Below, piece by piece: positions 13,454 through 30,834 of a stretch of DNA of 64,000 nt. The DNA is from Pseudonocardiales bacterium (GTDB lineage Bacteria; Actinomycetota; Actinomycetes; Mycobacteriales; Pseudonocardiaceae), in assembly GCA_019241525.1 (NCBI GenBank), contig JAFAWY010000014.1, forward strand, positions 1-64,000, given 5' to 3'. The number at the start of each line of letters is the position of its first letter. Positions within the stretch are counted from its first letter, which is position 1. Position numbers and translations under genes: made by a program. A model generated the notes under the pieces. It did not search any database and was not told the DNA's origin. It saw only the letters and a program-made list of their open reading frames with translations.

Positions 13454-13549
13454 AGTGAGATCCCCCTGTGTCTTCGGCTTCACGCAATGCAACGCCTCAG
13501 ACGGCAGGGAGTTACGCGGTCTTGTCGAGCGGTCAGCTGACCTTGGTCG

Positions 13550-14776
13550 CTACTGGTACCGGAGCGCCTCGATGGGCCGAAGTCGCGCCGCACGGTTGGC
13601 CGGGTATCCTCCAGCAACCAGCCCGATCGCCAGACTGATGGCGAACGAGAGGATCACCGAGGGGATCGTCACAGATGGCGCGAAGGTGGCGAAAGTGGGT
13701 CCGAACGACGGCGCGACGTTCGCACCCAGCACCGACAACCCGACTCCCACCAGGACACCAATCAGACCGCCCAAGCCAGCTAGCAGCAGCGACTCGATAA
13801 GGAATTGTTCAAGGATTGCTCGACGAGTCGCTCCGATTGCCTTTCGAATACCGATCTCGCGTGTTCTCTCGGTGACCGAAACCAGCATGATGTTCAGAAC
13901 CCCGATCGCACCGACAACCAGAGAGATCGCCGCGACCGCCGCCGTGAACAAGGTAAGAATCCGCAAGATTTGGTTGAACGTGTCAAGCCGGCTGCGCAGA
14001 GATTGCACTTCGAAGTCCCGGTTCGCGGAATCCTTGATCCGGTGCCGTTCGGATAGGATGCGGATCACATCATTTTCGGCCGCAGGCACAGCGTTGGCAT
14101 CGCTCGCTTGCACGATCATCTGGTTGATCTTGTCACCGCCGCCGAAGATGTACCGGCGGACCGTTGGCAGCGGCATGGCGACGACACCATCGCCGGGTTC
14201 GCCGACGGACTGCATCACGCCGATGACCCGGAAGGTCTGCCGGTTGATCCGAACGGGTTTGCCCAGCGCAGCCGCAGGGTCATCCCCGTAAAGGTAGTTG
14301 GCCACCGCAGAACCCAGCACCACCACTCTGGCCGTGCTGCGGACCTGAGCCTCGTCAAAGAACGCGCCGGCCGACATGTCCTGGTTGTTCACCTCGAGCC
14401 ACTGCTCGGTAGTGCCCACAACATTCGCCCGGTACCGGTAGGCATCCCCGTCTACCAATGCTTTACCGCTGGTGGCGGGAATGACCGCCGCGATGTCGCG
14501 GGACAGTGTTTTATCTTGCAGCGCGGCGACGTCTGCGTCGATCAGGTCTTTTGGCGGGGCACCTCCGGGCACGTTCCCGACTGATGGCACCACAGTGATC
14601 AAATTGGCCAGCGGTTGGATTTTCTCATTGACCGAGGTCTGCACACCGTTGCCGAGAGCCACCAGCAGGATCACCGACGCAACACCGATGATGATGCCGA
14701 GCATGGTCAGCGCAGACCGCAACCGATTGGCGCGCAATCCCCGCAGTGCGACGCGGAGCGCCTCCCCGAGGTTCAC
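13550..14776 (-). CDS. MacB-like ABC transporter permease
   Basis: 408 residues of the MacB/FtsX type: one N-terminal membrane helix (LTMLGIIIGVASVILLVALGNG), a large extracytoplasmic MacB_PCD domain, then three C-terminal helices with the family signature VTERTREIGIRKAIGATRRAILEQF. Its ATG overlaps the stop of the upstream ATPase by four bases, so the pair is coupled. Substrate unknown; relatives export peptides, antibiotics or lipids. Confidence 0.93.
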   Translation of the reverse strand: MNLGEALRVALRGLRANRLRSALTMLGIIIGVASVILLVALGNGVQTSVNEKIQPLANLITVVPSVGNVPGGAPPKDLIDADVAALQDKTLSRDIAAVIPATSGKALVDGDAYRYRANVVGTTEQWLEVNNQDMSAGAFFDEAQVRSTARVVVLGSAVANYLYGDDPAAALGKPVRINRQTFRVIGVMQSVGEPGDGVVAMPLPTVRRYIFGGGDKINQMIVQASDANAVPAAENDVIRILSERHRIKDSANRDFEVQSLRSRLDTFNQILRILTLFTAAVAAISLVVGAIGVLNIMLVSVTERTREIGIRKAIGATRRAILEQFLIESLLLAGLGGLIGVLVGVGLSVLGANVAPSFGPTFATFAPSVTIPSVILSFAISLAIGLVAGGYPANRAARLRPIEALRYQ

Positions 14777-15465
14777 GCGCTGACCTCCGTCCGGATCCGC
14801 TGTGCCTGATCACTCACGATGCGCCCATCTCGCATCCGCACAATGCGCTTGGCGAACCGGGCGACTTCCTCTTCGTGAGTGATGATCACAACGGTGCGGC
14901 CCGCATCGTTAAGCGCACCGAGGATCTTGAGGATCTCTGCACTGGCTGCGGTATCGAGGTTGCCGGTGGGCTCATCGGCCAGCAGCAGCACAGGATCATT
15001 GATCAGCGCCCTCGCAATAGCAACCCGCTGTTGCTGGCCACCAGAAAGCTCATTGGGCATGTGCTTAAGACGATCGCCCAATCCCACTTGCTCCAGCGCA
15101 ACCCTGGCAGCATGACGCCGGATCCGCACGCCCGCGTAGACCAGAGGCAATTCGACATTACGGATGGCGCTGGTACGGGCCACGAGGTTGAACGACTGGA
15201 ACACGAAGCCGATCTTGCGGCTTCGGATTTTGGCCAGCCGGTTGTCAGACAGCCGGCTGACGTCAGTGCCGTCAAGCAGGTAGCGCCCGCTCGTCGGAAC
15301 ATCCAGACAGCCCACAATATTCATGAGCGTGGTCTTGCCTGATCCGGAAGGGCCCATGATGGCGACGAATTCACCATCGTCAATAGTGAGGTCGACACTT
15401 TCCAGTGCCCGCACCTCAACTTTGCCCATCCGATAGACTTTGGTGACGTCTTCAATCTGGATCAT
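14773..15465 (-). CDS. MacB-type ABC transporter ATP-binding protein
   Basis: Walker [11 protein letters not shown]-loop [26 protein letters not shown] (the LolD/MacB subgroup pattern), [26 protein letters not shown] and [10 protein letters not shown] are all present. ATG 15465 ([14 protein letters not shown]) follows a G-rich stretch; 40 further codons upstream are not conserved-looking. First gene of the three-gene exporter operon. Confidence 0.94.
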
Positions 15466-15681
15466 GCTAGCCCCCCATCCCCCAATTCCCCCTATCAAGC
15501 GGATCGCGTAGGGCCCGGTGTCCGGTAGGCAGCAACGCACCGACCGTCCGATCGGGACCTTGCGGCAGGAGGGGACGTCACCCACCGTACGCGGTCCACG
15601 CCAGACGCTACCGCGTTGAGCCCGTCACGGAAAGTGCAGGAGCACGCGAACGGGCGATCTTTAGCCGCCGATATGGATTTT

Positions 15682-15984
15682 TCACTCAATGGAAGCCGGG
15701 CGGATCTGTCCACGGTCAGCGAGCAACGCCAGCAGCGGCCGTAGCGCCTCCGGAATCTCACTTTCGCTTAACATCACCCGCCGTTCGTGGTCATCCCCGG
15801 CAGTGACGATCTCGTAGCGGAAACGATCCGGCCCCATGGATCCCTGGCTAAGACGACCCCAAGGTAACGCCCGCAGGGCCGCTTCGACGCGGGGAGCATC
15901 GGTCTCGGTGAGCTGACGGGTATCGAGGGTGGCGTGCAGGGAAACCCCGGCCACGCCACCACGGCGGGTCACGTCGACGCGCAT
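15682..15984 (-). CDS. emfourin-type inhibitor of M4 metallopeptidase
   Basis: 100-residue protein starting MRVDVTRRGGVAGVSLHATLDT, with PDRFRYEIVTAGDDHERRVMLSES and a C-terminal PLLALLADRG. This matches the protealysin-inhibitor (emfourin) family, which binds and blocks protealysin-like M4 peptidases. It lies 40 bp downstream of such a peptidase gene on the same strand. The start is chosen at ATG 15984; the open frame further upstream overlaps the peptidase antisense-free but without similarity. Confidence 0.85.
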   Translation of the reverse strand: MRVDVTRRGGVAGVSLHATLDTRQLTETDAPRVEAALRALPWGRLSQGSMGPDRFRYEIVTAGDDHERRVMLSESEIPEALRPLLALLADRGQIRPASIE

Positions 15985-16024
15985 GTGTTCAGTGTCCGGC
16001 TCGAGCAGCGCATCGCAGCAGCCG

Positions 16025-17083
16025 TCACAACGAGATTTTGACGGCTTCCCAACCCTGTTGCACAGCGTGCGCCTGGTCGCTGCCCGTGCCGTAGGTCTGT
16101 TGCGCCTGGCGCAAGGTGATCCGCGCGAAGTCACGGAACGTCGCGTTGGGACGAAGCTGGGGATCTGCCAGCGCGGCGTACCAGATCGGTCCCGCAGCGT
16201 CCCAGGCATACCCACCAAGCGCGCTAGCCATGACGTAGAACGCATGGTTGGGAATACCTGAATTGGTGTGCACGTCGCCGCCGGATACGTAGCCGTCCAT
16301 ATCCGCGGGTTGGTCGTCATAAGCATTGGCGGTACCTGGGCGCTTCATCGACCGCAGCGCCGGACGTAAGGCGGGACCGACAATGTCTGCCCCGATGAGC
16401 CAGTCCGAGTTATGTACGTCCTGCCCGAGTACGTATTGCTTGACTTGAATGCCGAAGACATCAGATACCGACTCATTGAGCGCCCCGGACTGCCCTGAGT
16501 AGGTCAGATTGGCCTCGTACTGGGTGACGCCGTGGGTCAGCTCATGCCCGATGACATCGATCCCGGCTGTCGTTTGGGTAAGGATTTGCCCATCGCCATC
16601 GCCGAAGAACATGTGACCTGCGCCATCCCAGAACGCATTGGCGTAACGCCGCCCGTAGTGCACCAGGCCAAGTAGGGGCATACCCGCCGCGTCGATGGAA
16701 TCACGCTCGAACACGGTCCAGTAATACGCATAGGTGGCCCCGAGCCCGTCATAGGCCTGATTGGCCGCTTCGTCCTGGCTCGGTGCTTGCCCTTCCACCC
16801 GGATGACCACTCCGGGTGTCTGCGACTCGCTACCCTGCTGATCGTAGATCGTCCGCTGCGGTTGGCCACCGGTCCGGCTGAACGTGACCGGCGCCGGCCG
16901 GTGGCGCAGCGTCGCCGCGCACTCAGCACGAGCCAGCCGGAAGCGAGCGTCCAGCGCCAGCGCGTTGAGGGCGGCATCGCGTACCGCCTCGTCAGCGGAG
17001 CGGGCCAGGCGGTGCAGCACGGACGGTGGCACGATGCAGTGCCGCACACTACTGGCGGTCATGGGTCTGGAGCTCCTGTTCAT
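16025..17083 (-). CDS. protealysin-like M4 family metallopeptidase
   Basis: Thermolysin-family zinc endopeptidase, 352 residues. HELTH at about 180-184 and the third ligand in GALNESVSD (Glu about 204) form the zinc site. HTNSGIPNHAFY holds the catalytic His. There is no signal peptide. A short leader with CIVPPSVL resembles the PPL-type propeptide of the protealysin group, so secretion may be unconventional or the enzyme may be intracellular. The emfourin gene follows in the same operon, a known peptidase-inhibitor arrangement. Confidence 0.92.
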   Translation of the reverse strand: MNRSSRPMTASSVRHCIVPPSVLHRLARSADEAVRDAALNALALDARFRLARAECAATLRHRPAPVTFSRTGGQPQRTIYDQQGSESQTPGVVIRVEGQAPSQDEAANQAYDGLGATYAYYWTVFERDSIDAAGMPLLGLVHYGRRYANAFWDGAGHMFFGDGDGQILTQTTAGIDVIGHELTHGVTQYEANLTYSGQSGALNESVSDVFGIQVKQYVLGQDVHNSDWLIGADIVGPALRPALRSMKRPGTANAYDDQPADMDGYVSGGDVHTNSGIPNHAFYVMASALGGYAWDAAGPIWYAALADPQLRPNATFRDFARITLRQAQQTYGTGSDQAHAVQQGWEAVKISL

Positions 17084-17259
17084 CCGGGAATACCTCGCGC
17101 GGGCGCGGCATCGGGGGCCGCCAAGCGAGGCGAGATCGTAGCTGCCTGCAACGCGGTGACGTCCACTTGAGGTTGTGCCTCCGCGCTGGGAAGTTTCCGC
17201 CAGGTGAGGCCGGCGGGGTCGGAGTTTTTTCTTTGCATACCTCGGGTACTTCGCACAGT

Positions 17260-17934
17260 GTGCTACTTCTGCGGCCCCCTGGCGTCTATCGAGCTGATAG
17301 CGACACGTCCTTATTGATTGAGGTCATGTGCGCTGGCCGTTATCCGGCTGGACGCCACGTGCTCGATATCGGCACCGGTACCGGCGCCCTGGCGTTGGCC
17401 GCTGCCAGGGCCGGCGCCGCCTCGGTCGCCGCGGTCGATCTCTCGCTGCGATCGATCGTGGCCACCTGGCTCAATTGCCGGATCCGCGGCGTTCGATGCA
17501 GGGTCTACCGCGGCGACTTGTTCGAACCAGTAGCCGGCCGGCGCTTCGACCTCATCGTGGCCAACCCGCCTTACGTGCCCGCCGCCACGAACGGGCTCTG
17601 CCGGCACCGGATCAGCCGGTGCTGGGATGGCGGCGTCGACGGGCGCGCTGTGCTGGACCGGCTGTGCGCCGGGGCGCGCGAATTGCTCAGTCCGCAAGGG
17701 ATGATGCTGATCGTCCACTCCGCGGTGTGCGACGACAGTGTCACGCTGCGCCGTCTCGCTGAGGCTGGCCTGCCCGCCAAGGTGCTGGCCCGCTCCACCG
17801 TCCCCTTCGGTCCGGTCATGCGGCTACGGGCAGCCATGCTGGAGTCACGCGGACTCATCGAACCCGGCCAACACGACGAAGAGCTGGTTGTCATCGCTGC
17901 CCGGGCATCTGCTGGAGGACGAGGTGCCCACTGA
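17260..17934 (+). CDS. HemK/PrmC-like N5-glutamine class I methyltransferase
   Basis: 224 residues from GTG 17260 (MLLLRPPGVYRADSDTSLL). SAM motif VLDIGTGTGALALAAARAGA at about 33, and the NPPY motif (VANPPYVPAA) that defines glutamine/asparagine and N6-adenine methyltransferases, are present. The short N-terminus suits the HemK2-like group rather than full PrmC. It is the first of three genes joined by overlaps (11 bp, then 4 bp), so it is co-expressed with the CDGSH protein and the haem-oxygenase-like oxidase. Confidence 0.82.
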   Translation: MLLLRPPGVYRADSDTSLLIEVMCAGRYPAGRHVLDIGTGTGALALAAARAGAASVAAVDLSLRSIVATWLNCRIRGVRCRVYRGDLFEPVAGRRFDLIVANPPYVPAATNGLCRHRISRCWDGGVDGRAVLDRLCAGARELLSPQGMMLIVHSAVCDDSVTLRRLAEAGLPAKVLARSTVPFGPVMRLRAAMLESRGLIEPGQHDEELVVIAARASAGGRGAH

Positions 17935-18163
17935 GCCCACCCGACGCCGGATCACCGTGACCGAGGACGGGCCAATCCTGGTGCAGGGACCGGTCGAGAT
18001 TGTGCTTGCCGACGGACAGGAAGTGATCTCTGACCGGGCAGCCACTGCACTATGCACCTGCCGTCGCAGCCGCCGATATCCGTTCTGCGACACCAGCCAC
18101 CGGCGGCGGGTGCGCACCGATCGGATCCGCGGTGCCGAGGCCGACCGGACGTGTGACCGGTGA
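17924..18163 (+). CDS. CDGSH-type iron-sulfur protein
   Basis: 79 residues. The C-terminal CTCRRSRRYPFCDTSHRRR matches the CDGSH 2Fe-2S pattern (three Cys and one His); the signature reads CDTSH instead of CDGSH. The N-terminal half (ITVTEDGPILVQGPVEIVLADG) is the usual prefix of this actinobacterial group. GTG 17924 overlaps the methyltransferase stop. Probable electron carrier; its tight coupling to the next gene suggests it feeds that enzyme. Confidence 0.88.
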   Translation: MPTEPTRRRITVTEDGPILVQGPVEIVLADGQEVISDRAATALCTCRRSRRYPFCDTSHRRRVRTDRIRGAEADRTCDR

Positions 18164-19212
18164 CGAGCGACACCGCCATGCCGGCTGTGGTGGCGCCGGG
18201 CCTTCCAGCTCCGCGGGGTCCGCTATCTGCTGCCGCATTCGATACGTTGCGGGGATCGCCTGGCGAGCAGATCGATGCGGCGGCCGTGGCGCAGGCTGAC
18301 CCGTACGGGGACGACCTCCAGTTGGCGCTGTACTGCTGCTACGAGCTGCATTACCGCGGTTTCAGCGGAGTAGGCGCGGATCTGGAATGGGACCCGCAAC
18401 TGCTCGGTCCGCGCCGGCACCTGGAACGGGCTTTTTTGGCCACGTTACGGGCCGACGTGCCCGGCGGGACCGATGTCTCCGCTGAGATCGATGCACTTCT
18501 GGTGGAGACGCCAGATGCCAGCGGTGTCTCGCATTACCTGCGCCGGTGCGGGCAGCTGTGGCAACTGCGTGAGTACGTCGCGCACCGTTCGCTCTACCAC
18601 CTCAAAGAGGCCGATCCGCAAGCATGGGTGATTCCCAGGCTGAGCGGGCCGGCCAAGACCGCGCTGGTGACCGTCGAGCACGACGAATACGGCGCGGGCA
18701 ACCCACGGCGTATGCATTCGCGGCTGTTCGGCGACATGATGAGCGAGCTTGGGCTATGCCCGCAGTACGGGGCCTACCTCGATGCTGCACCGGCCGCCAC
18801 CCTGACCGAAGTCAACTTCATGTCGCTGTGCGGGCTGCACCGCGCGCTGCGCGGTGCGCTCATCGGCCAGTTCGCCACCGTGGAGCTGACCTCTTCCCCC
18901 GGCTCGGACCGGTTGGTCCGAGCCATGCGCCGGTTGGGTTGCGGACCCGCCGCAATCGAGTTCTACGCCGAACATGTCGAAGCCGACGCGGCACACGAGC
19001 AACTCGTCCGGCACGGCGTGATCACCCCACTGCTTGCCAGCGAGCCCGAACTCGCCACCGACGTGGTGTTCGGCATCCAAGCCGCCACCCTGCTCGCTGA
19101 CCGTTTCTCGGACCTGCTCTTGCGGAACTGGACCGCCAGCCAACCCACGCTGCGCAACCCTTTACCGGACGCACCGAGCCAGGTCGCCACCCGACAAAAG
19201 ATTGCGCCGTGA
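18160..19212 (+). CDS. iron-containing redox enzyme (haem-oxygenase-like oxidase)
   Basis: 350-residue helical protein of the iron-containing redox family, whose studied relatives are haem-oxygenase-like diiron or mononuclear oxidases. ALYCCYELHYRGF supplies an early Glu/His pair, VEHDEYGAGNPRRMHSRLF a second Glu-His set and FYAEHVEADAAHE the last set of ligands. GTG 18160 overlaps the CDGSH stop (GTGA). Substrate unknown. The methyltransferase/CDGSH/oxidase trio looks like one pathway, possibly modification of a small molecule or peptide. Confidence 0.82.
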   Translation: MTSDTAMPAVVAPGLPAPRGPLSAAAFDTLRGSPGEQIDAAAVAQADPYGDDLQLALYCCYELHYRGFSGVGADLEWDPQLLGPRRHLERAFLATLRADVPGGTDVSAEIDALLVETPDASGVSHYLRRCGQLWQLREYVAHRSLYHLKEADPQAWVIPRLSGPAKTALVTVEHDEYGAGNPRRMHSRLFGDMMSELGLCPQYGAYLDAAPAATLTEVNFMSLCGLHRALRGALIGQFATVELTSSPGSDRLVRAMRRLGCGPAAIEFYAEHVEADAAHEQLVRHGVITPLLASEPELATDVVFGIQAATLLADRFSDLLLRNWTASQPTLRNPLPDAPSQVATRQKIAP

Positions 19213-19222
19213 ACTCGATGGG

Positions 19223-19684
19223 TTATTGCGGTAATTGCTCGCGGAATTCCCGGACGGCCTCAGCGATGGCGTCTACCTCCAGCACGTCGGCCATCAACCC
19301 AACCTGGTCTTCCCACACTTCGGAAGGCACCGCAGCGCGTGCCTCGTCTTCGAGGATGTGATAAACGGGGAGGCCCAACTGGACCCCGGCCAGCGGCCCT
19401 GCCCAACTCGGATCACCGAGCACCACCGTCTCGGCGGCGATCCCGGCGCTTTCCGCGTCTGGTGCGCCGAGCAGCACGATCAGCGAATCCGCGCCGTGCT
19501 CATCGGCCAGACGCTTGATCGTCTCTTGGGTGGACAGGTCCATGGCTCCAGCAGCCGTTCAAACGAAGCACTCGGTGGCGACATAAGCGACCGGGGCACC
19601 TGCCGCCTTGACACAGGTTGCGATCGCCGGGCCGGCGACTCCGTCGCGTTCGCCGATCACGATGACCTGCTTGCCGTCAAACAT
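19223..19684 (-). CDS. grdA: glycine/sarcosine/betaine reductase component A, selenoprotein GrdA
   Basis: Component A carries the selenol that is alkylated as the carboxymethyl-Se intermediate. Read through an in-frame TGA at 19561-19559, the gene encodes about 153 residues: [20 protein letters not shown], then ATECFV, selenocysteine at position 42, [11 protein letters not shown], and the conserved end [19 protein letters not shown] plus [18 protein letters not shown] lies exactly where the family has CFVU. The ATG follows AGGAGG and directly abuts the thioredoxin stop. Gene finders will usually report only the 106-codon part after TGA. Requires Sec machinery encoded elsewhere. Confidence 0.94.
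19544..19561 (-). promoter_or_regulatory. grdA selenocysteine codon and short SECIS-like hairpin
   Basis: TGA at 19561-19559 is followed after two bases by GGCT, loop GCTGG, AGCC, a four-bp hairpin. It is weaker than the grdB structure, so the SECIS role is tentative. Confidence 0.45.
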
Positions 19685-20032
19685 TCATACCTCCTGATTG
19701 GGCGCAGTTTGGAGCTTCTCTCGTGCACGTGACAGCCACGCGTCGACCTGCTCTGCGTTGAGATTGGGGTCGGTGATGCGATCCACCTCCTGACCATCGG
19801 AGAACAGCAGCATGGTGGGAAGGCCGCGCACCTGCAGCGACATAACCAGCCGACGAGCCTTGCTGGCGTCCAGCTTGACCACAGTCACATCGGGATTAGC
19901 ACTGGCGATGCTTTCCATATGCGGGGCCAGCGCAACGCAAGGGCGGCAGCTATCGGCCCACACGTCGACCAGCACCACACCTGATCCGACAAGGTCATGG
20001 AACGTCTCTTTGGTCGCATCCACTACAGCCAT
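19685..20032 (-). CDS. thioredoxin of the grd operon
   Basis: 115-residue thioredoxin fold: VVLVDVWADSCRPCVALAPHMESIA with active site Cys29-Arg-Pro-Cys32 instead of CGPC, and cis-Pro in VRGLPTMLLFSDG. In Grd systems thioredoxin reduces the oxidised selenoprotein A. The altered dipeptide (RP) suggests a dedicated, GrdA-specific partner. GGAGG lies 7 bases before ATG 20032, and its TGA touches the grdA ATG. No thioredoxin reductase is encoded in the window. Confidence 0.9.
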   Translation of the reverse strand: MAVVDATKETFHDLVGSGVVLVDVWADSCRPCVALAPHMESIASANPDVTVVKLDASKARRLVMSLQVRGLPTMLLFSDGQEVDRITDPNLNAEQVDAWLSRAREKLQTAPNQEV

Positions 20033-20034
20033 GC

Positions 20035-21462
20035 TTAACCTCCGTTGCGTTCCAGCAGCACGCTCATCCCGTCGGAGCGTTGGCTCATCCGTCCTAGAAA
20101 CAGGCTGCCCTTGGCGAGCAGCAGCACCCGCTCGGCGTCCCCGGCCGTCAGGCGGGTCAGCGCATGCGGCAGGTAACAGATCGCCGAGGCGAGATGTCCC
20201 TGAGTAGGGGCATAACCTGGCATACCGCGTTCCGCGACGAACGCATCAATACCCTCACGGCCGATGTCCTTGCGGCGCGCGGCCAGCGCCGCGATGGTGC
20301 GGTAGTTGCGGGCCGCGACATCGCCCGAGCCCTGCGGCTCGGTGATCTCCGGGTTGTGCAGTTCGGTGGCGTAGTCGTCGATGTCCAGCAGCCGGGCGCC
20401 AATCGCCTCCAGCGGCCGCACCGCCAGGTCATGGATGATCTGCGCCCCGGCGCCACCCGAGGACACCCGGTGGCTCCCGACGGCGTCGAGCCGGATCCGC
20501 GGAGAGATCCCGTCGTCGGCGGTGATGAGCAGCGCAACGCCGCCGAGGACGTCTTCCAGCACCGGCAAGCCATGGCGCAGGTGCCCCTCGAACTTCATCC
20601 CCAGCTTGGGTTGCGAGCCACCGGCGACAACCACCACCTGCTCGAAGACCCCAGCCACCACCAGGCTGGCAGCGATCACCACGGCAGGGAGCGGCGCGGC
20701 GCAGAAGTTCTTCACGTCGGCTCCGGAGGACTCGGTCAGGCCCGCAACGGAGGCGATCGTCTTGCCCATGTTGCCCCCGCCGCGCTGGTACCGATCACCG
20801 ACAGCTTCCTCGGAGCACGAGATCGTGTAGCCGATTCCGGCTGGATCAAGGCCGTGATCGTGCAGCAGGTGCAGCAACGCCAGCGCGCCGGTGGCCTTGC
20901 AGGCCAGGTTCTCCAGCAGCACGTGCGCGGTCAGTGACTCGTCCTCGGCATGCGCTGGGCGCAGCGCGCCGGCGACCGTGTCGGGCGCCAGATGCACCGG
21001 CAACGCGCCGCTGGCCAGCGCCGCAGTGACATCGCCGGTGGCTGCCGAGATCCGACCCAGGTCCAGGTACGCCGACAGCGGGTGTGACGCCAGCCGCTTA
21101 GCTGCCCGCTCAGCCACGTCAGCGGTGAGTACGAGCAGGTCGAACTCGTCGACCGCGGCCATCAGCCCGAGGAATTCCTCCTCCGGCATGAGCTCGCCGA
21201 ACGGCGCGAAGCGTTGAGCACCCGCCCAACTCGTGCCGACCCATGGGCGGGCTGGTAACTCACGCGGGTGACAGGCGCCCAGGAACGCCTGGTGCGGCGG
21301 GTAGCTGACGGCGTCGTCGAAGCTGCGCAAGCCGCTCAGGAACTTCGACGTCAGCTCGGCGTCTGCGGGTAGCGTCCGCATCGGCTTGGAACCATGCCGG
21401 GCCAGTCCCGGGGTGTGCGCCAGCACCAGGCTGGCCGCTCGGACGACCGCCGCATCAGGCAT
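20035..21462 (-). CDS. grdC: glycine reductase complex component C, GrdC-like subunit
   Basis: Component C takes the acetyl group from the selenoprotein A intermediate and releases acetyl phosphate. About 475 residues, similar to GrdC: AASLVLAHTPGLARHGSKPM at the start, LRSFDDAVSYPPHQAFLG, ISCSEEAVGDRYQRGGGNMGKTIA, a possible nucleophile Cys in DVKNFCAAPLPAVV, and FVAERGMPGYAPTQGHLASA near the end. ATG 21462 overlaps the grdB stop by 8 bases. Clostridial GrdC is paired with the PlsX-like GrdD; no grdD frame is present here. Confidence 0.88.
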   Translation of the reverse strand: MPDAAVVRAASLVLAHTPGLARHGSKPMRTLPADAELTSKFLSGLRSFDDAVSYPPHQAFLGACHPRELPARPWVGTSWAGAQRFAPFGELMPEEEFLGLMAAVDEFDLLVLTADVAERAAKRLASHPLSAYLDLGRISAATGDVTAALASGALPVHLAPDTVAGALRPAHAEDESLTAHVLLENLACKATGALALLHLLHDHGLDPAGIGYTISCSEEAVGDRYQRGGGNMGKTIASVAGLTESSGADVKNFCAAPLPAVVIAASLVVAGVFEQVVVVAGGSQPKLGMKFEGHLRHGLPVLEDVLGGVALLITADDGISPRIRLDAVGSHRVSSGGAGAQIIHDLAVRPLEAIGARLLDIDDYATELHNPEITEPQGSGDVAARNYRTIAALAARRKDIGREGIDAFVAERGMPGYAPTQGHLASAICYLPHALTRLTAGDAERVLLLAKGSLFLGRMSQRSDGMSVLLERNGG

Positions 21463-22756
21463 GGACAACACCGGCCTCAAAGATCGTCGGGTGCTCCACC
21501 GCGGTGGTCACCGCATCCAGCGCGCACTGCACCAGCTGCCGGCGCCACTGCTGCTCACCGGCTGGCGGCAGGCTCGGGTCGCCGGATGGGTACGGAATAC
21601 CCCGGCCCGGCACGATGCGCGGCGCGCCCACCTGCTCGGCGATGGTCACCAAGTTGGTGATCAGCGCGGTGGGGATACCGGCGCGCTCCAGCTCCTTGGC
21701 AAGCGTTGACCCGCAACGCGTTCCGGTTCCTCAAGTGGCGGTCAGGATCGCGGCTTGCACGCCGGCCTTGCGCAGCTCCGCGGCCCACTCGACGCCGAAG
21801 CGGCGGGCGGTGGCCACCGGCGTGCCGTTGCCCACGGTAACCAGGAATTCTTCGTGCAGCCGGCCGATCGTGCCCTCGCGCTCGAGGGTGCGCGCGGCAT
21901 CCAGGGGCACCAACCGGTTGGGGTCAGCGTTGGCGGCCGTGGTGGCGAACCCGCCAGCCACCGACTCCCACTCCCCGGAGGCGAGGCTGTCAACACCGTC
22001 GATCGGGTAGCGCAGCCAGCGGGTGGCCCGGGCCGATTCCAACCGGTCTGGGTTGCCGGCCGGCACGACCGCACCCTCGGTGACCAGCGCGACGGTCACG
22101 CTCGCGGCTTTGTCGATCGGCGCGGCTGGTTCCACCACACCGAACCCCCCAACGGGAACCTCGGTGGCCTCCCGATCGCCACCCAGCCGGCGTAGCACAA
22201 GTTCGACCGCCCGGGCTGCCGAGCGTTGCGTAACGAGCTGACCGATACGGGCAGCCGGGGTCACCTTGCCGTCAGCCGGGGTCAGCTCCTCACCAGCGGC
22301 CACCTTCACGACCGCAGCGGCCAAGCGCTGCACGCTCGGGCGCATTTCGCGCGCGGTGGCCCCCGAGGCGATCACCGGAGCTTCCCCTGCGTCGGATATG
22401 CCTGGATTGTCCGGGTGCATCGAGGCCAAGGCTGGTAACCCGGCGGACTGGGCCGCGGCAACCAACCGGGCGCAGGCCAGCCCGTAGCGACCACTGCCAA
22501 AGGCCGGGCCGGCGACCAATACTTCGGCACCGGCGTCGCGCGCCATCTCCAGCAGCTCCTGTGCGGCAGTAGCGTTGGAGGCCGCGTGGTCGTCGCCGCA
22601 GACGAGCGTCGCCACGATCTCGTGCTCGGCACCGAGCAACTGGGCCAGCAGCCGCCCAGGACCGACCGTTCCCTCGAGCATCCGGGGACCGATTCCTGCC
22701 GAATCCTCACCGCCGAGCCCGGCGTAGAACTGGTTGACGTAGTGCAGGACGCGCAT
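21455..22756 (-). CDS. grdB: glycine/sarcosine/betaine reductase component B, selenoprotein GrdB-type
   Basis: Substrate-specific selenoprotein that removes the amino group with the pyruvoyl subunit. Read through TGA at 21733-21731 it has 433 residues: MRVLHYVNQFYAGLGGED at the start, FGSGRYGLACA, then AAILTAT, selenocysteine 342, GTGTRCGSTLAKELERAGIP, and RIVPGRGIPYPSGDPSLPP. The TGA coincides with the family motif TUGTxTRCG. Two abutting frames (21731-22756 and 21455-21730) would be called separately if TGA is taken as stop. ATG shares one base with the grdE stop. Whether the substrate is glycine, sarcosine or betaine cannot be told from sequence. Confidence 0.94.
21703..21733 (-). promoter_or_regulatory. 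bacterial SECIS element of grdB
   Basis: On the minus strand TGA (21733-21731) is followed by eleven bases, then a perfect six-bp stem GCGTTG/CAACGC (21719-21714 and 21708-21703) with loop CGGGT. A GGU-containing apical loop about 18-20 bases after UGA is the classic geometry recognised by SelB in bacteria. Confidence 0.75.
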
Positions 22757-24060
22757 CAGGCTGTGCCTCCCAACATCTGACCGACCAACTTCTGATCGGC
22801 CAACTCTTGCTCTGCCCGGCAAGTCAGCCACCCGGCGCCGAGCGGGCTCAGGGCGGACAGGATCGCGGCGGTGGGAATCTCGACCGCGGCGGTGGCGTCT
22901 GCGTCGGCGATACGCAGCTGGGCGCCGCCGATCGCCCGGTCGACCGCGGGCAGTTTGATTCGTTGGTCGTAGTTGCCCGTGCTGACCACCGCGCCGCTTC
23001 GCGGGCCGGCAACCAGTGGTGGGCCAGTGCCGTCAGCGCCGGACAGCTCGGCGTACAGGGCCACCGCGGTCAGACCGTCGGCCTCCAGCGCGTCGACTTT
23101 GAGCATCAGGTCGTTGTCAGCGTTGCCAGCGCCTTCCTTGGTCACAATGACGGCGTCGAAGCTGGCGGCCCGGCACAGCCATGCGGCGTGTGTGGAGACC
23201 AGTTCCTTGTCGGCCTGCGCCACCGGCTCGGGGCACAACACCATTCCGGCGAAGCACAGATCTTGGCCATCGCGGGCACGCAGCTCGGCGATCACCGGGT
23301 GGTTCTGGTGCACGTACGTTGGATTGCGCAACGCTGGGTGCCCGTACTGGCCGCTGACCACGGCGCCGTCCTCGACCTCGACCGGATCGAACAGGGTCGG
23401 CAGGCTGCCCGTCATGCTTCGTCCGTAGACAAAGACGTCTTTGAACGCGCCCTGGGTTTGCAGGTTGGTGATCACACCGACACGGGGCAGTCCCCCGGTC
23501 GGCGTGCCTGGCCGGTGCGGTGGCGCCAGTTCCTCGATGGTGTCCGGCTCGGCGCTGGTGGCGGCATCGGCCAGGTGCACGGCCAGGCGCAGCAGCCCGC
23601 GGCGCAGCGCAACCTCAGCTTCCTGCCAGGTCGCCTCGTCCGCGCGGTCAAACTCGACAACCACGTTGTTCGTCCGGCCGAACGGGGATCGCTCGGCGGC
23701 GGGACCGGACATGTCGATCAGGCCCTCCTGGTTGCGCGGCAGGTACCCAGCCGCCAGGACCGCAGCTCCGCGCAGCACATGGGTGTCTCCGCCACGTGGC
23801 CGATTCACTGGCGCCATCCAGCCGGGAAACACGCCCCCCGCCGATCCTTTGGTGCGCGGCTCCACGACATCGAGCGGTGCGACGATCCGAGCCCGATCGC
23901 CGGGTGCTGCGACATGCACCCGTACCGACGCCAGGGCAGGATCAGCGAACAGCGCCTCGGCTTGGTCGCGGCCCACCATGAGCTGGTGTTGCTCGTACTG
24001 CGTGGCGGCACCAATTTCTATGGAGTGAACCTCGTGCACCATGCGCCGCAGTACCGGCAC
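22756..24060 (-). CDS. grdE: glycine/sarcosine/betaine reductase component B, GrdE-type pyruvoyl proprotein
   Basis: 434 residues. GrdE-type proproteins self-cleave at an internal Cys to give a pyruvoyl group that binds the substrate amine. Recognisable segments are IEIGAATQYEQHQLMVG, VEPRTKGSAGGVFPGWM, GVITNLQTQGAFKDVFVYG, NPTYVHQNHPVI, DLCFAGMVLCPEP (Cys about 269, the likeliest cleavage residue) and VIVTKEGAGNADNDLML. GTG 24060 follows GAGGGGAG. First gene of the five-gene operon; the promoter should lie in 24061-24330, shared with the divergent inhibitor gene. Confidence 0.9.
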   Translation of the reverse strand: MPVLRRMVHEVHSIEIGAATQYEQHQLMVGRDQAEALFADPALASVRVHVAAPGDRARIVAPLDVVEPRTKGSAGGVFPGWMAPVNRPRGGDTHVLRGAAVLAAGYLPRNQEGLIDMSGPAAERSPFGRTNNVVVEFDRADEATWQEAEVALRRGLLRLAVHLADAATSAEPDTIEELAPPHRPGTPTGGLPRVGVITNLQTQGAFKDVFVYGRSMTGSLPTLFDPVEVEDGAVVSGQYGHPALRNPTYVHQNHPVIAELRARDGQDLCFAGMVLCPEPVAQADKELVSTHAAWLCRAASFDAVIVTKEGAGNADNDLMLKVDALEADGLTAVALYAELSGADGTGPPLVAGPRSGAVVSTGNYDQRIKLPAVDRAIGGAQLRIADADATAAVEIPTAAILSALSPLGAGWLTCRAEQELADQKLVGQMLGGTA

Positions 24061-24348
24061 AGCGATCTCCCCTCGAACGGTGTCGGTATCTGCATAGTAA
24101 CGGTGCTCGGGAATTTCGCCGGATGGCCGATTTTATCGCTTCTCCGGGATCCGGCACGAGCCGTCGCAGCGTCTAACCATTGCCGCACTGCTAGCTGATC
24201 TTGGAGCGCCACCATACGGCCGCTGTTGCTCGGCGCTGGGGGACCTCATCATGGGTGTCGAGGGACGTAGCTCGAACCCCGACCACCGACCTTCAGATGG
24301 TGTGCGATCGCAAAGCGGCCTGCTCACCACGTGAAGAGGAGTAGCTGT

Positions 24349-24732
24349 ATGCGAACACTGGTGGTAACGGCGCTGCTCACCGGGATGGCCGCGGCCCTAC
24401 CGGCCGACGGAGCCACCAAGGCGATCGCAGCACCCGAGACGTTCCTCGTGTTAGGCGTTTCAGGGGATGGCCACTCGCAGTTCGTCACCCTGCACTGCGA
24501 CCCGGCCAGCGGAACCCATCCACATGCCGAAGCTAGCTGTGGAACATTGCTGGCGGCTGGCGGTGACATCAATAAGGTGATCGGCCAACCTGACACCTTG
24601 TGCCCGGATATTTACGATCCGGTGACAGCGACCGCTTCCGGTCGCTACCAAGGTGCGCAGCTGATCTTCCACCGCACCTACCCCAATCACTGCCAGCTGG
24701 ACACCAAGACCGCTCCGCTTTTCCAGTTCTAA
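24349..24732 (+). CDS. subtilisin-inhibitor-like (SSI family) secreted protein
   Basis: 127 residues with a signal peptide (about 1-27, cut near AIA-APETF). The SSI pattern is clear: LHCDPASGTHPHAEASC (Cys50, Cys64), AAGGDI, LCPDIYDPVTATASGRYQG and HCQLD, giving disulfides Cys50-Cys64 and Cys85-Cys115. In SSI the P1 residue lies two after the second-disulfide Cys; here it is Asp87 (P1' Ile88) instead of Met or Lys, which would not suit subtilisin or trypsin. AGGAG lies nine bases before ATG 24349. Its nearest neighbour downstream is tricorn protease. Confidence 0.9.
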   Translation: MRTLVVTALLTGMAAALPADGATKAIAAPETFLVLGVSGDGHSQFVTLHCDPASGTHPHAEASCGTLLAAGGDINKVIGQPDTLCPDIYDPVTATASGRYQGAQLIFHRTYPNHCQLDTKTAPLFQF

Positions 24733-24769
24733 CCGAGTACCGGGCTATCGCCGCGGATAAGGTGCTGGG

Positions 24770-27700
24770 GTGTTGAGCCCCGGTAACGACTCTTACCTCC
24801 GCTACCCCACCTTGCACGGCAACCAGGTTGCTTTTGTCGCTCAGGACGACGTGTGGCTCGCGCCCGTGACTGGCGGCCGAGCATGGCAGCTGACCGTAGA
24901 TCAGGCCCCGACCAGGGATCTGCGTTTCTCCCCTGACGGGGCACAGTTGGCTTGCGTCAGCCAGCGCGATGGTGCACCGGAGGTGCACGTTATGGCCACT
25001 GCCGGAGGCCCGTCGTTACGCACGACGTGGTGGGGCGACATGCACATTCGCCTGCTGGGATGGGCTGACGCGCACCGGGTACACGTGGCCTCAGCTGTCC
25101 GTGAGCCGTTACGCCACCGCACCTGGGCTCGTGCCGTCCCGCTGGACGGCGGCCCAGCCCCGCGCCTGCCGTACGGTCCGGTCACCGCGCTGGACGTCGC
25201 GGCAGCGGGCGGCGTAGTCCTCGGCACTGGGTTCGGCGGACGGCGCCGCGACCCCGCGATGTGGAAGCGCTACCGGGGTGGCACCGCAGGGCGGCTGTGG
25301 ATCGATCCCAGTGGCTCGGGGCTGTTCGTCCGGCTGCTGCCGGAGCTGGACGGCCAACTCACCGCCCCGATGTGGGTGGGTGGCCGGGTGGCGTTTCTGT
25401 CCGACCACCAAGGCGTGGGCAACGTGTATTCGGTGCTGCCGGACGGCTCTGATCTGCGCCGGCACACCGATCACGATGCCTACTACGCGCGGCATGCCAC
25501 CACCGACGGCGAGCGCGTCGTCTACGCCGCCGCTGGCGAGCTGTGGCTACTCGACGATCTGTCCGCCGACTCCCGGCCGCGCCGGTTGGAGCTGCACACC
25601 GGGGGACCCCGCGCGGCGCGCATCGCGGCTCCGGTATCCGCTGGCAAGCATCTGGGCGATGTCGCTGTCGACCGCGCCGGCCAGGCCAGTGCTGTCGAGG
25701 TGCGGGGCAGCGTGCAGTGGGTGACACACGCAGACGGTCCCGTGCGAACCCTGGCAGCTCAGCCGGGCGTGCGGGCTCGGCTGCCCCGGCTGCTCGGCGA
25801 ACATGTGGCATGGGTCAGCGACGCCCCGGGCGAAGACGCGCTGGTCGTGTCCGCCCAAGACGGTGCTGGTGCGCGAACGCTGGCAGCCGGCCGGTTGGGG
25901 CGGGTACTAGACCTTGCCGCCGCTCCGGACGGGAGCCGGTTGGCGGTGGCCACGCATGACGGTCGGCTGCTGCTGGTCGATCCTGCCACCGGCGCGGACA
26001 CCACGCTGGCCACCAGCGACAACGGCGCTGTGGGTGACTTAGCCTTCTCGCCCGATTCGCGGTGGTTGGCATGGACCCATCCCGGCCCATACCCGCTGCG
26101 CCAGATCAAGTTAGCCCGGCTCGCCGACGGTACCGTGGTCGACGCCACCGCGCTGCGCTTTGCAGACTTCGCCCCGACCTTCACTCTGGACGGCCGCCAC
26201 CTGGCGTTCCTGTCCAATCGCACGTTCGACCCGGTGTACGACGCGCAGGTGTTCGATCTGTCGTTCCTGCCTGGGATCCGCCCACAACTGCTGCCGCTGG
26301 CGGCCGACACACCATCGCCGTTCGCCCCCACAGTGCAGGGCCGCCTCCCCAAGCTCCCCAAAGACGGTGACGGCAGCGGCGGCAATGACGACGTCACCGT
26401 CGTGGTCGACCTCGACGGCCTGATCCAGCGTGCTGTGCCAGTACCGGTACCAGCAGCGCGGTATTCGTCACTGCTCGCGGTGAAGGGCGGTCTGGTATGG
26501 CTGCGAAAGCCCGTGCATGGCGTGCTCGGCGACGACCTCGCCACTCCTGACGACGAGGTCCCGCGTCCGGTATTGGAACGTCTGAACCTGGCCACTGGCG
26601 TGTCAACGGTGCTCGAAGAAGGTGTCAACGAGGTCTGGGTCAGCGGCGACGGCACTCGCCTGGTAATCCGTGACAAGGAGAAGCTGCGGGTGCTGCCCAG
26701 CGAGAAGCCGGCCAGCAAGGACGCCCAGCGTGGCGACCCGTCGGCAGCGATCGATGTGGACCTGTCCCGGGTGCGCGTGCAGGTGACGCCGGCCTCGGAG
26801 TGGCGCCAGATGTACGACGAAACCGGGCGCCTGATGCGTGACAACTTCTGGGTAGCTGACATGGCCGGGAATGACTGGACTGCCCTACTGGCGCGCTACC
26901 GGCCGTTGTTGGATCGGGTCGCCACCCGCGATGACCTGTCTGACGTCCTCTGGGAGCTGCAAGCCGAGCTGGGAACCTCACACGCCTACGAGACACAGCC
27001 CGAGCCGCCCAAGCAGAAGGAGCGGCGACTTGGCCACCTTGGTGTCGACCTGGAACGGGACTCCGACGGGCGTTGGCGGATTACCCGGATACTGCCAGGA
27101 GAGAGCTCCACGAAAACCGGCCGTTCTCCGTTGCGGGCACCGGGGACCGCGGTGCAGCCGGGCGAAGCGCTAGTTGCGGTCGACGGCCGGTCCGTTGACT
27201 CAGTGACCGGGCCGTGGCCGTTGCTGGTGGGCACCGCGGGCAAGCCCGTCGAACTACGGCTGCGCGCGGTGAGCTCTGCTGACGAGCGGACCATCGTCGT
27301 GGTCCCCGTGGCCGACGAGATGCCGCTGCGTTACCACGACTGGGTGGCCGGTCGCCGGGCTGCAGTGCATCGAGCCACCGACGGCCGGGTGGGATACCTG
27401 CACGTGCCGGACATGATGGCGCTGGGTTGGGCGCAGTTGCACCGTGACCTGCACATCGAGGTCTCGCGCGAGGCGTTGGTACTTGACGTACGCAGCAACG
27501 GCGGCGGCCACACCTCGCAGCTGGTGGTGGAGAAGCTGGCCCGGAAACTCACCGGGTGGGTCGTGCCCCGCGGCAAGCAGCCCTACACCTATCCGCGAGA
27601 CGTGCGGCGGGGCCCGCTGATCACCATTACCGACGAAAACGCGGGCTCCGACGGCGACATCGTCACCGCGATGATCCAGGAAAACGGGCTGGGGCCGGTG

Positions 27701-28009
27701 GTGGGCATGCGCAGCTGGGGCGGCGTGATCGGCATCGAGCCCGGCACCAAGCTGGTGGACGGGTCCACCGTGACCCAACCCCGCTACCCCATATGGATCA
27801 TGAACCGGCGCTGGTCGGTCGAAAACCACGGCGTGGACCCGGACGTGGAGGTTCCGGTGCCGCCACAGGCATGGGCCCAAGGGCTGGACCCGCAGCTGGA
27901 TACCGCGGTGGAGCTGGCGCTGGCTGCGTTAGCTCAGGCACCCCCAGCTACCGCGCCGACCACCCAAGATCGGCCGCCTACCTCGGCACCACCCTTGCCG
28001 CCGCGCTGA
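24770..28009 (+). CDS. tricorn protease homologue (S41 family)
   Basis: 1079-residue cytoplasmic peptidase that trims peptides made by larger proteases. An N-terminal six-bladed propeller (YLRYPTLHGNQVAFVAQDDVW onward) and a second seven-bladed region (to about 670) precede the core. The PDZ segment is near 760-850. Catalytic residues match tricorn: Ser737-His738 (LGTSHAYE), nucleophile Ser960-Asp961 (DENAGSDGD) and Glu1018 (SVENHGVDPD). The tail is Ala/Pro/Thr-rich. GTG start at 24770, 37 bp after the inhibitor gene, so possibly co-transcribed. Confidence 0.95.
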   Translation: MLSPGNDSYLRYPTLHGNQVAFVAQDDVWLAPVTGGRAWQLTVDQAPTRDLRFSPDGAQLACVSQRDGAPEVHVMATAGGPSLRTTWWGDMHIRLLGWADAHRVHVASAVREPLRHRTWARAVPLDGGPAPRLPYGPVTALDVAAAGGVVLGTGFGGRRRDPAMWKRYRGGTAGRLWIDPSGSGLFVRLLPELDGQLTAPMWVGGRVAFLSDHQGVGNVYSVLPDGSDLRRHTDHDAYYARHATTDGERVVYAAAGELWLLDDLSADSRPRRLELHTGGPRAARIAAPVSAGKHLGDVAVDRAGQASAVEVRGSVQWVTHADGPVRTLAAQPGVRARLPRLLGEHVAWVSDAPGEDALVVSAQDGAGARTLAAGRLGRVLDLAAAPDGSRLAVATHDGRLLLVDPATGADTTLATSDNGAVGDLAFSPDSRWLAWTHPGPYPLRQIKLARLADGTVVDATALRFADFAPTFTLDGRHLAFLSNRTFDPVYDAQVFDLSFLPGIRPQLLPLAADTPSPFAPTVQGRLPKLPKDGDGSGGNDDVTVVVDLDGLIQRAVPVPVPAARYSSLLAVKGGLVWLRKPVHGVLGDDLATPDDEVPRPVLERLNLATGVSTVLEEGVNEVWVSGDGTRLVIRDKEKLRVLPSEKPASKDAQRGDPSAAIDVDLSRVRVQVTPASEWRQMYDETGRLMRDNFWVADMAGNDWTALLARYRPLLDRVATRDDLSDVLWELQAELGTSHAYETQPEPPKQKERRLGHLGVDLERDSDGRWRITRILPGESSTKTGRSPLRAPGTAVQPGEALVAVDGRSVDSVTGPWPLLVGTAGKPVELRLRAVSSADERTIVVVPVADEMPLRYHDWVAGRRAAVHRATDGRVGYLHVPDMMALGWAQLHRDLHIEVSREALVLDVRSNGGGHTSQLVVEKLARKLTGWVVPRGKQPYTYPRDVRRGPLITITDENAGSDGDIVTAMIQENGLGPVVGMRSWGGVIGIEPGTKLVDGSTVTQPRYPIWIMNRRWSVENHGVDPDVEVPVPPQAWAQGLDPQLDTAVELALAALAQAPPATAPTTQDRPPTSAPPLPPR

Positions 28010-28334
28010 AAGCGACCGACGGGCAAGCGATCCGATTTGGTGATAGGTGAGCTGCACGATAACACTCTTAGCCGCGTTATCTTAACTTGCCGAACCCGAT
28101 AAGAGTCACAACAGCTCGTGCTTGATACACGCCAGGACAAATATATGTCGACCCGGCAGCGACTGTACACTACTCTCCTGCGCGACTCGACCCCCGATTG
28201 GTACAACGTAGCTGTTTCGTGATTTATATAGGCTTGCGCAGGATACCTCGCCAGGTCATACTAAGCGGACCACAACCACAGCCGTGCGGATCCTCCGATC
28301 CGGAGTTATCCGATTCTCATTGTGAGGGTGAATC
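28010..28334. other. intergenic, no gene seen
   Basis: Contains an inverted repeat ACTCTTA/TAAGAGT (28064-28070 and 28100-28106), possibly an operator or an imperfect terminator after tricorn. No convincing small frame. Confidence 0.4.
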
Positions 28335-29147
28335 ATGCATTCTGGCGGGATGCGTCGCTGCCTGGGAACGGCCCTTGTCGCGTGCGCAAGCCTGACATTT
28401 TTCACCGCATGCAGTAACGACCAGGCAGATAAGAGCGGAACATTCTTCGGTCCGTCTCAGAGCATCGGAAACGGCAGGGTCAAAGCCTATGCCATGCTGG
28501 ACAAATTTGGAAACCCGACCGAGGTCGGTGTTCGAATGTCGGCAGCAGCACTGGACGGACTCCCAGCAGAAGACGCGGTTCCTCCGCAGATGTTGGTTCT
28601 GCCCCTCCCGCACCAAGCCTCGGCGACCGCATTCGACCATGTTATGTTGAACTGGAATAGCCACGGACATCAGCCGGTGGAGCTTTTCGGCAAACCGCAC
28701 TTCGACATCCACTTTTATATGGTCAACCCGGCCGCAGTAGCTGGGATTGATCCTCGCAAGCCCGACTTCGCGACACGGGCCGCGCACCTACCCGACCAGA
28801 AGTACGTTCCACGAGATTACGTGCTTCCTCCAGGTTCACCAGCCGAAAACGCCGTACCTGCTATGGGACTGCACTGGGTTGACGCCACCGACGGGCTCGA
28901 GCCGCGCAACTATGACTTCAAACAAATCCTCATCAATGGCTCATGGGACGGCGCATACACCTTTGTCGAACCGATGATGACCCGCGAATGGATGCTAACG
29001 AAGCAGGCCGTCCAGGAAAAAGTTAAACAACCGCAGGCCTACCAGAAAAACGGCTACTATCCGACGACATATAGCGTCCATTATGACGACCAGGCGAAGG
29101 AGTACTCCGTTGCCCTGGGCGGGATGACCATGCGCCACGCATCCTGA
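28335..29147 (+). CDS. putative lipoprotein, TTHB210/DUF5602-like
   Basis: 270 residues. A signal peptide ends in FFTAC (Cys about 28), a lipobox. The mature part holds VKAYAMLDKFGNPTEVGVRM, MLNWNSHGHQPVELFGKPHFDIHFYM and AMGLHWVDATDGLEPRNYDF, with clustered His (HGH, HFDIHF, LHW) that could bind metal. I recall this pattern from the TTHB210-like/DUF5602 group of unknown function. GAGGG lies 7 bases before ATG 28335. AT content is higher than in nearby core genes. Confidence 0.7.
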   Translation: MHSGGMRRCLGTALVACASLTFFTACSNDQADKSGTFFGPSQSIGNGRVKAYAMLDKFGNPTEVGVRMSAAALDGLPAEDAVPPQMLVLPLPHQASATAFDHVMLNWNSHGHQPVELFGKPHFDIHFYMVNPAAVAGIDPRKPDFATRAAHLPDQKYVPRDYVLPPGSPAENAVPAMGLHWVDATDGLEPRNYDFKQILINGSWDGAYTFVEPMMTREWMLTKQAVQEKVKQPQAYQKNGYYPTTYSVHYDDQAKEYSVALGGMTMRHAS

Positions 29148-29418
29148 ACAGATACGTTGTCAAGGCGGCTCACGACGGCCCGTCATCGACTTGATCGAGG
29201 GCCAGCATCCCTGGCGGACTACCTAACTCCCTCACTGGCTACCTAGTCGACACTCGCCCTCACAACTAAGTGGTGCCGCATATATTTTTAGGGGCAGGTG
29301 GGTGTTGTCAGAGAACTTCCTCGGCGCCATGGTAGTGGAAGGGGTCCGGACCGGCAGCACCATCGATCGATTGGTGTGCCGTTGCGGCCTGTTCAAGGCC
29401 GCTGTGAGGGGGTTTCGC

Positions 29419-29652: not shown

Positions 29653-29735
29653 TTAAGTAACCCGCTGCGGTAGATACCGGCCTTGGTGCGACGAGTTCAG
29701 CCGTGCGGTAGCTTCCTCGACCGGAGGGGCCTGTC

Positions 29736-30782: not shown

Positions 30783-30834
30783 GGGTATGTAGGCACGGGC
30801 AAGCGCTGTCTGCAGACGTGGGCTCGGGATATCG

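Follow-up and report, generated by a model that had tools for sequence, protein, structure and literature searches.

In fermenting anaerobes, Grd enzymes are familiar as a means of gaining energy that ends in acetyl phosphate. The locus studied here raises the question of what such enzymes do in an actinobacterium with a respiratory oxidase. It lies in a stretch of 64,000 nucleotides from a Pseudonocardiales bacterium (assembly GCA_019241525.1, contig JAFAWY010000014.1, positions 1 to 64,000), hereafter the window, in which grdE, grdB, grdC, trxA and grdA form a tight five-gene operon on the minus strand (24060-19223). We found that this cassette is a Grd machine without the glycine hook and without the acetyl-phosphate exit, carried by an actinobacterium with a respiratory oxidase and by many relatives. 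Because it has no residue to grip glycine and no part for making acetyl phosphate, the window enzyme probably cuts a small molecule other than glycine and passes the product on differently. The operon reads as follows.

22756-24060, minus strand: grdE-like gene, GTG start, 434 amino acids (PF09338, 332.6 bits); GrdE is the substrate-binding partner of GrdB and has Ala at the would-be pyruvoyl-forming Cys (SGQYGHPALRNPTY; Cys-column alignment)
21455-22756, minus strand: grdB-like selenoprotein gene, 433 amino acids (PF07355, 354.8 bits; TIGR01918 over cut-off)
21731-21733, minus strand: selenocysteine (Sec) codon TGA of grdB (TATUGTGTRCG; sequence and row comparison)
21703-21719, minus strand: selenocysteine insertion sequence (SECIS) hairpin of grdB, GCGUUG-CGGGU-CAACGC (pairing, fixed codons, Rfam SECIS_4)
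20035-21462, minus strand: grdC-like gene, 475 amino acids, modelled KAS III/thiolase fold with nucleophile Cys254 (PF19364; NF040746 over cut-off), carrying K26, R224 and Y225 of the GrdD-less class (class-residue alignment)
19685-20032, minus strand: trxA-like gene, 115 amino acids, CRPC, predicted electron donor (PF00085, 67.5 bits)
19223-19684, minus strand: grdA selenoprotein gene, 153 amino acids (PF04723, 209.7 bits; NF040748 over cut-off)
19559-19561, minus strand: Sec codon TGA of grdA (CFVU, then T; sequence and row comparison)
19544-19556, minus strand: possible, weak SECIS hairpin of grdA (78.4% of cells paired)

Neighbouring genes of the operon overlap or abut: TGATG joins grdE to grdB, and grdB and grdC share 8 bases. 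An earlier reading made from the letters alone, the sequence-only reading, had described five coupled minus-strand genes here (grdE, grdB, grdC, a thioredoxin gene and grdA), and Pfam and NCBIfam agreed with it. The NCBIfam cut-offs were passed by GrdB (Grd/Prd selenoprotein B, TIGR01918, 418.6 against 65.45), GrdC (component C beta, NF040746, 543.7 against 450) and GrdA (NF040748, 213.9 against 130). The substrate-specific models, for glycine, sarcosine, betaine and fluoroacetate, all stayed well under cut-off for the window proteins. The glycine equivalog TIGR01917 reached 380.9 of the 602.2 bits needed, the betaine GrdH model NF040795 374.3 of 775 and the fluoroacetate FarE model NF053623 124.2 of 675. 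Sarcosine reductase GrdFG supplied the best NCBIfam match of GrdE (NF040793, 235.1) and the second best of GrdB (NF040794, 405), but both are far under their cut-offs of 780 and 800, and the IHGGYDR motif is missing from the window GrdB.

That the operon is a Sec-dependent member of the Grd family is near certain. Across all loci compared, exactly one in-frame TGA was found in 95 of 95 GrdA rows and 91 of 92 GrdB rows, the single deviating row being a 183-residue fragment. The same held for the GrdA matches of 5/5 genomes in a sample of the order and of all 15 over-cut-off genomes in a sample of the phylum; a 16th, sub-threshold match in the latter had no in-frame TGA. Row comparison thus confirmed the proposal that grdB (21733-21731) and grdA (19561-19559) carry TGA at the Sec position of their families. 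Because the codon recurs in this way, a sequencing error, which the sequence-only reading had allowed for, is very unlikely and was rejected together with a plain stop. The machinery for which that reading had suggested a search is all present: a tRNA-Sec (78.8 bits, over cut-off; anticodon TCA), selA and selB some 2 kb downstream from the tRNA gene (supported by Pfam), and selD at another genome position (387.4 bits against a cut-off of 125). As a companion of grdA, selB was uninformative: of the 298 genomes of the order, 181 have a match that passes the cut-off of its model (the window genome not among the matches listed). A molybdopterin-domain search for other selenoproteins returned seven matches with no stop within the matched part. 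One of them, L237, reads Cys in the region where formate dehydrogenases carry Sec. With L236 and L239 as possible cases, grdA and grdB cannot be called the sole selenoproteins.

Codon use and pairing, not folding energy, carry the SECIS signal of grdB. All 240 cells compared, from 40 distinct rows, keep its six pairs, with exchanges of U-A to C-G and U-G, and shifting the hairpin by 1 to 3 columns left only 24-57% of cells paired. Codons 4 to 9 past the TGA are nearly fixed in 44 rows of the actinobacterial type and its near kin: ACG in 44/44, CGT in 42/44 (a codon used for 6.6% of Arg in the rest of these genes), TGC in 44/44, GGG in 41/44, TCA in 31 of 31 Ser rows (3.9% elsewhere) and ACG in 40 of 40 Thr rows; the rows are related, hence the tests behind the codon p-values are not independent. 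The Rfam model SECIS_4 aligned to the hairpin end to end from the first base past the TGA (19 bits, E 0.044), below its gathering score of 38. Folding energy past the TGA gave no signal, its mean being weaker than background for grdB and grdA alike. These results indicate that the grdB hairpin is a real SECIS, selected at the RNA level. The SECIS check proposed earlier therefore succeeded for grdB; for grdA it gave only weak pairing, with no Rfam match up to E 1 and no consensus fold from RNAalifold. The counts drew on 43 of 44 GrdB rows and 39 of 42 GrdA rows.

The simplest account of such an operon would be an ordinary clostridial glycine reductase, converting glycine to acetyl phosphate and ammonia with coupling to ATP. 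The families are the same, TIGR01918 and the GrdC and GrdA equivalogs are over cut-off and, as in clostridial GrdEABCD, homologues of GrdE, GrdB, GrdC and GrdA occur together with Sec in GrdA and GrdB and a thioredoxin gene in the operon. However, the gene order differs (E-B-C-trxA-A against trxB-trxA-E-A-B-C-D), the class residues of GrdC are other ones, and both the pyruvoyl Cys of GrdE and GrdD are missing. In an alignment of 82 GrdE the window protein has Ala at the pyruvoyl-Cys column, where 14 rows have Cys and 68 another residue or a gap; the motif HP[AGS]L, which spans this column, is found in 40 of the 82 including the window (A 24, G 11, S 5). The reference site is the Cys of SACDKN (C249 in the clostridial locus L161), taken as the pyruvoyl-forming residue and matched by motif and by literature descriptions of the processed Cys, not by a published numbered alignment. 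GrdB departs from the glycine type as well. The published motif for glycine is GPxF[NF]AGRYG, AHGGxD (PMC9751293; here and below, statements on the literature refer to the accessible parts of the papers cited), and the window GrdB, which reads GPAFGSGRYG, VAGGFATTAANADPNRLVPLD (VAGGFAT) and RLVPLD at the published-motif sites, fits neither this nor the sarcosine motif of that survey. Most other cassette GrdB read SVHGGFS, and the nearest kin of the window VDGGFAT or VAGGFAT. With the TIGR01917 score, this makes a glycine reductase of the clostridial kind quite improbable. What stands of the glycine/sarcosine/betaine-reductase module named in the sequence-only reading is a Sec-dependent Grd-family operon; the clostridial acetyl-phosphate system, lacking here its GrdD, its pyruvoyl Cys and the glycine and sarcosine motifs of GrdB, does not.

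The absence of GrdD, component C alpha and the acetyl-phosphate subunit, was examined at several levels. A search of the window genome (98% complete) with PF02504, a model that gives a true GrdD 243 bits, returned no match, and neither did a GrdD protein query. The same query against 19 genomes found GrdD in three, all Bacillota (G690, G691 and, in pieces, G695), no match in 12, and in the other four only weak matches (up to 35.5 bits, 28-34% identity), most likely PlsX. PF02504 matched in 9 of 19 actinobacterial grd genomes (9 of 18 besides that of the window), never near grd. By locus, GrdD was seen in 3 of 80 named loci, a measure of absence that is weak where contigs end. In the Bacillota sample, GrdD adjoins GrdC in 30 of 30 loci fetched, which are the best of 84 over-cut-off genomes among 299; the GrdD-linked class was sampled from Bacillota alone.

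GrdC itself differs between the two settings. All 32 GrdD-linked rows, all from Bacillota, have T26, Q27 (31) or I27 (1), [MIV]224-N225, R251 and Q369. Among 96 rows without a local GrdD we found K26 in 91, P27 in 93, R224-Y225 in 93, K251 in 95 and H369 in 90, the 93 of 96 being inflated for the 80 named loci, the best of at least 536, which were found with patterns including GDRYQRGG. In 19 rows drawn without that pattern, the window among them, R224-Y225 occurred in 19 and K26 in 18 (the exception being L082); K26 and R224-Y225 occurred in 0 of 32 GrdD-linked rows. The row counts contain at least these repeats: L113 equals L019, L115 equals L082, L092 equals L083, and L206 lies in the genome of L161. 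A GrdC tree of 96 rows placed the GrdD-linked rows on one side of one branch (SH-aLRT 100) and 30 actinobacterial-cassette rows on one side of another (99); it was built by a quick method with SH-aLRT only, used half of the 30 clostridial rows and omitted 18 rows that were near-copies or fragments.

A structure model of the window GrdC, built from 60 of 99 rows, was confident (pLDDT, predicted local distance difference test, 93.7). The 50 structure matches listed for it, from a search that included Foldseek, have Z 21.3-23.1 and are all KAS III, thiolase or other condensing-enzyme-like folds, among them 3lm6_B (Z 23.1, root-mean-square deviation 3.4 over 284 residues) and the thiolase 4zrc_A (Z 22.0, 3.0 over 256 residues). 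Profile alignment puts Cys254 of GrdC on the KAS III nucleophile. The likeness to the KAS III (FabH)/thiolase superfamily thus covers fold and nucleophile position. By contrast, two of three KAS III alignments are gapped by about 5 residues around R224-Y225, and GrdC, at 475 amino acids, exceeds the listed FabH/KAS III chains by about 110 residues or more. KAS III takes acetyl from CoA onto its nucleophile Cys; run backwards, the FabH reaction would yield acetyl-CoA from GrdC without GrdD. The same conserved centre can be read differently. Cys254, N386 and H423 are kept in 128 of 128 GrdC rows of both classes, as would be expected if classical acetyl-phosphate chemistry persisted with an unrelated enzyme, such as phosphotransacetylase (Pta), replacing GrdD. 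No such gene is among the recurring neighbours of the cassette, although no genome-wide Pta search was made, and we regard this stand-in as doubtful while giving it some weight.

With slightly less than even confidence, and from sequence evidence, we favour the following account: the window system would be a Sec- and thioredoxin-driven reductase of a betaine-like or another amine-free glycine analogue, with the acetyl group leaving via GrdC, most likely to CoA. Thioredoxin would keep the Sec of GrdA and GrdB reduced. GrdE and GrdB would bind a compound of the form X-CH2-COOH with a leaving group that can depart without a Schiff base; glycine betaine or some other N-substituted glycine is the most likely. 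In GrdB, Sec would displace the leaving group, and the carboxymethyl unit would move to the Sec of GrdA. GrdC would then draw this unit over, forming an acetyl thioester with its Cys254, and hand the acetyl to CoA, as KAS III in reverse, feeding a metabolism able to respire oxygen. The substrate class, betaine-like or N-substituted glycine, is likely; the transfer to CoA is the least certain step.

Neither betaine nor fluoroacetate is able to form a Schiff base. The proteins that serve them, betaine reductase GrdI and fluoroacetate reductase FarE, are also reported to have no processing Cys (PMC10838667), and the window GrdE shares this absence of the Cys, by which GrdI is described as no proprotein. 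Further likeness to betaine reductase GrdHI comes from Bacillaceae (Alkalihalobacillus, Lentibacillus and Cytobacillus) that carry Grd without GrdD. These Bacillaceae live aerobically. Their GrdD-less systems have Ser at the Cys site, and in Alkalihalobacillus (L118) a BCCT betaine/carnitine/choline transporter gene stands divergent from grd. The likeness is incomplete: the GrdH model is far under its cut-off, and the window GrdC belongs to another clade than that of the Bacillaceae. In the four Bacillaceae loci (L118, L124, L130 and L163) the operons contain trxB and trxA and no GrdD; selB lies beside grd in L118, and selD and selB lie near it in L130. In Candidatus Microthrix (L159, 3121-16925) the genes around a Grd operon that has the pyruvoyl Cys encode GcvT, BKACE, an amidohydrolase and a Rieske oxygenase, and together resemble a cluster for breaking down a betaine-like compound. 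For the window system, a betaine-like, N-substituted substrate is our best guess; the one functional hint comes from the GrdD-less Bacillaceae.

The missing Cys would also suit a reductase whose substrate is a two-carbon acid with a halogen or some other non-amine group, as in fluoroacetate reductase FarBE. FarE has no pyruvoyl Cys and FarB no CxxC adjoining its Sec (PMC10838667); after its Sec the window GrdB reads UGTGTRC, unlike the UGTCTRC of L161. The FarE model, however, stayed at 124.2 of 675 bits, and among seven window genes tested by Pfam we found neither an antiporter nor a radical SAM gene, which that paper gives as far partners, so that we hold this substrate unlikely.

The setting also admits that the complex acts mainly as a thiol or selenol peroxidase or in redox protection, and not in carbon metabolism. 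The host bears an oxidase, thioredoxin lies within the operon, and the reference list of PMC3091704 has a paper whose title (all that is given there) concerns peroxidase activity of GrdB. An adjoining gene for an iron-containing redox enzyme (PF14518, 18160-19212, opposite strand) ends 10 bases from the end of grdA. This reading gives no role to a conserved GrdC with an invariant nucleophile Cys, and the redox-enzyme neighbour is in no cluster of at least 5 among 45 loci; we give it little credence.

Several observations weigh against the account we favour, a betaine-like substrate and acetyl release to CoA. Desulforhabdus (L134) and Syntrophus (L146) keep the GrdE Cys though they have no GrdD, and the loss of the Cys and that of GrdD are therefore separate events. 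In five of the 40 HP[AGS]L rows the Cys column holds Ser, a residue that in other enzymes can give rise to a pyruvoyl group. Because the GrdD-linked rows form one side of one branch, the contrast between GrdC classes counts as one evolutionary event. No neighbour gene recurring across actinobacterial loci points to a substrate, either among 23 loci (clusters in at least 3) or among 45 (at least 5). The nearest window neighbours tested by Pfam encode a methyltransferase, the iron-containing redox enzyme, a thermolysin-like peptidase and a tricorn-like protease. The BCCT link comes from one locus; in Lentibacillus (L130), none of the four neighbours tested was BCCT. A stand-in for GrdD, either remote or unrelated, is conceivable. 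Finally, papers report GrdD beyond the clostridia, in Shewanella MTB7 (PMC10059138) and in maps of Synergistota (PMC10838667).

The recurring non-Grd clusters behind the neighbour result were the trxA of the operon, antisense frames of grdB, ABC ATPases, sets from a single genus and an FAD-enzyme cluster common to that genus and L112; the 23-locus set held two further small clusters (7 and 8). No transporter was found among the window neighbours tested by Pfam. A sequence search found no solved structure related to GrdE. The model of the window protein (22756-24060), although confident (pLDDT 92.4), matched nothing in the PDB by Foldseek at E <= 0.001, and its best Z in a structure comparison was 7.8.

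How common is the cassette, and in what kind of host? The window genome (4.72 Mb) encodes haem-copper oxidase subunit I, in line with its earlier description as aerobic-looking, and the host probably uses oxygen. A GrdA score over cut-off was reached by 5 of 298 genomes in the order sample and by 15 of 396 in that of the phylum (the window genome counted in both). To call the copy unexpected, as the sequence-only reading did, was accordingly too strong. Among 18 other loci the arrangement is E-B-C-trxA-A in 10, E-B-C-A in four, grdA apart from grdEBC in three (one genus) and otherwise in one. In one actinobacterial genus (L046, L049, L050, L082-L084) grdA stands alone, with grdEBC at a separate locus and no trxA detected beside it. 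The nearest named kin are four metagenome-assembled genomes (L086-L089), three of them named Pseudonocardiales, with GrdC 87% identical; the recurrence of the cassette in these four makes a contaminating contig unlikely. The blastn matches of L088 run collinear with the window for 18 kb (13416-31391). Those of L086 and L087 cover the operon and are elsewhere at most 110 bases long, in a search that could miss diverged synteny; because these two loci share so little besides the operon, the cassette seems to move as a unit. The 30-row cassette clade includes one row named Dormiibacterota (L105). Some actinobacterial Grd fall outside it: L043 and L045, with the GrdE Cys present and no trxA found, and L042, L044, L051, L150, L155 and L157.

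Elsewhere in the window, a gene for a PhyH-family dioxygenase is directly followed by an HD-domain gene (58494-59896), a pairing that we take to resemble phosphonate-degrading oxygenase pairs; a MetE-like gene (57093-58283) lies on the other strand. A tmRNA gene occupies 551-919 on the minus strand.

In the literature compared, which also included PMC13188914, PMC5029168, PMC6716910 and PMC9908766 (supplements and most subscription literature being outside its scope), we recognised no report that deals with Grd of Actinomycetota proper or describes a class without GrdD. The sole 'actinobacterium' with GrdA and GrdB in PMC1794560 is Symbiobacterium, and a figure legend in PMC8547467 has betaine reduced to trimethylamine and acetyl-CoA and names no GrdD-less route. 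The GrdB motifs of the survey PMC9751293 would miss this cassette.

The GrdD-less class is found in Actinomycetota, deltaproteobacteria and aerobic-type Bacillaceae, from whole genomes, and in Chloroflexota and Rokubacteria by locus only. More tentatively still, we suggest that GrdD-linked glycine reductase is one branch of a larger family, in which a GrdD-less GrdC (K26, R224-Y225) releases acetyl-CoA and the actinobacterial cassette has also given up the pyruvoyl group, such that bacteria capable of respiring oxygen may, with the help of selenium, take a betaine-like compound straight to acetyl-CoA. With two GrdC classes to compare, the destination of the acetyl group becomes directly testable. 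If true, a GrdD-less class in bacteria with this capability would mean another exit for the acetyl group and a use for selenium when actinobacteria cycle carbon and nitrogen; trimethylamine and similar amines might also have a source here that has gone unrecognised.

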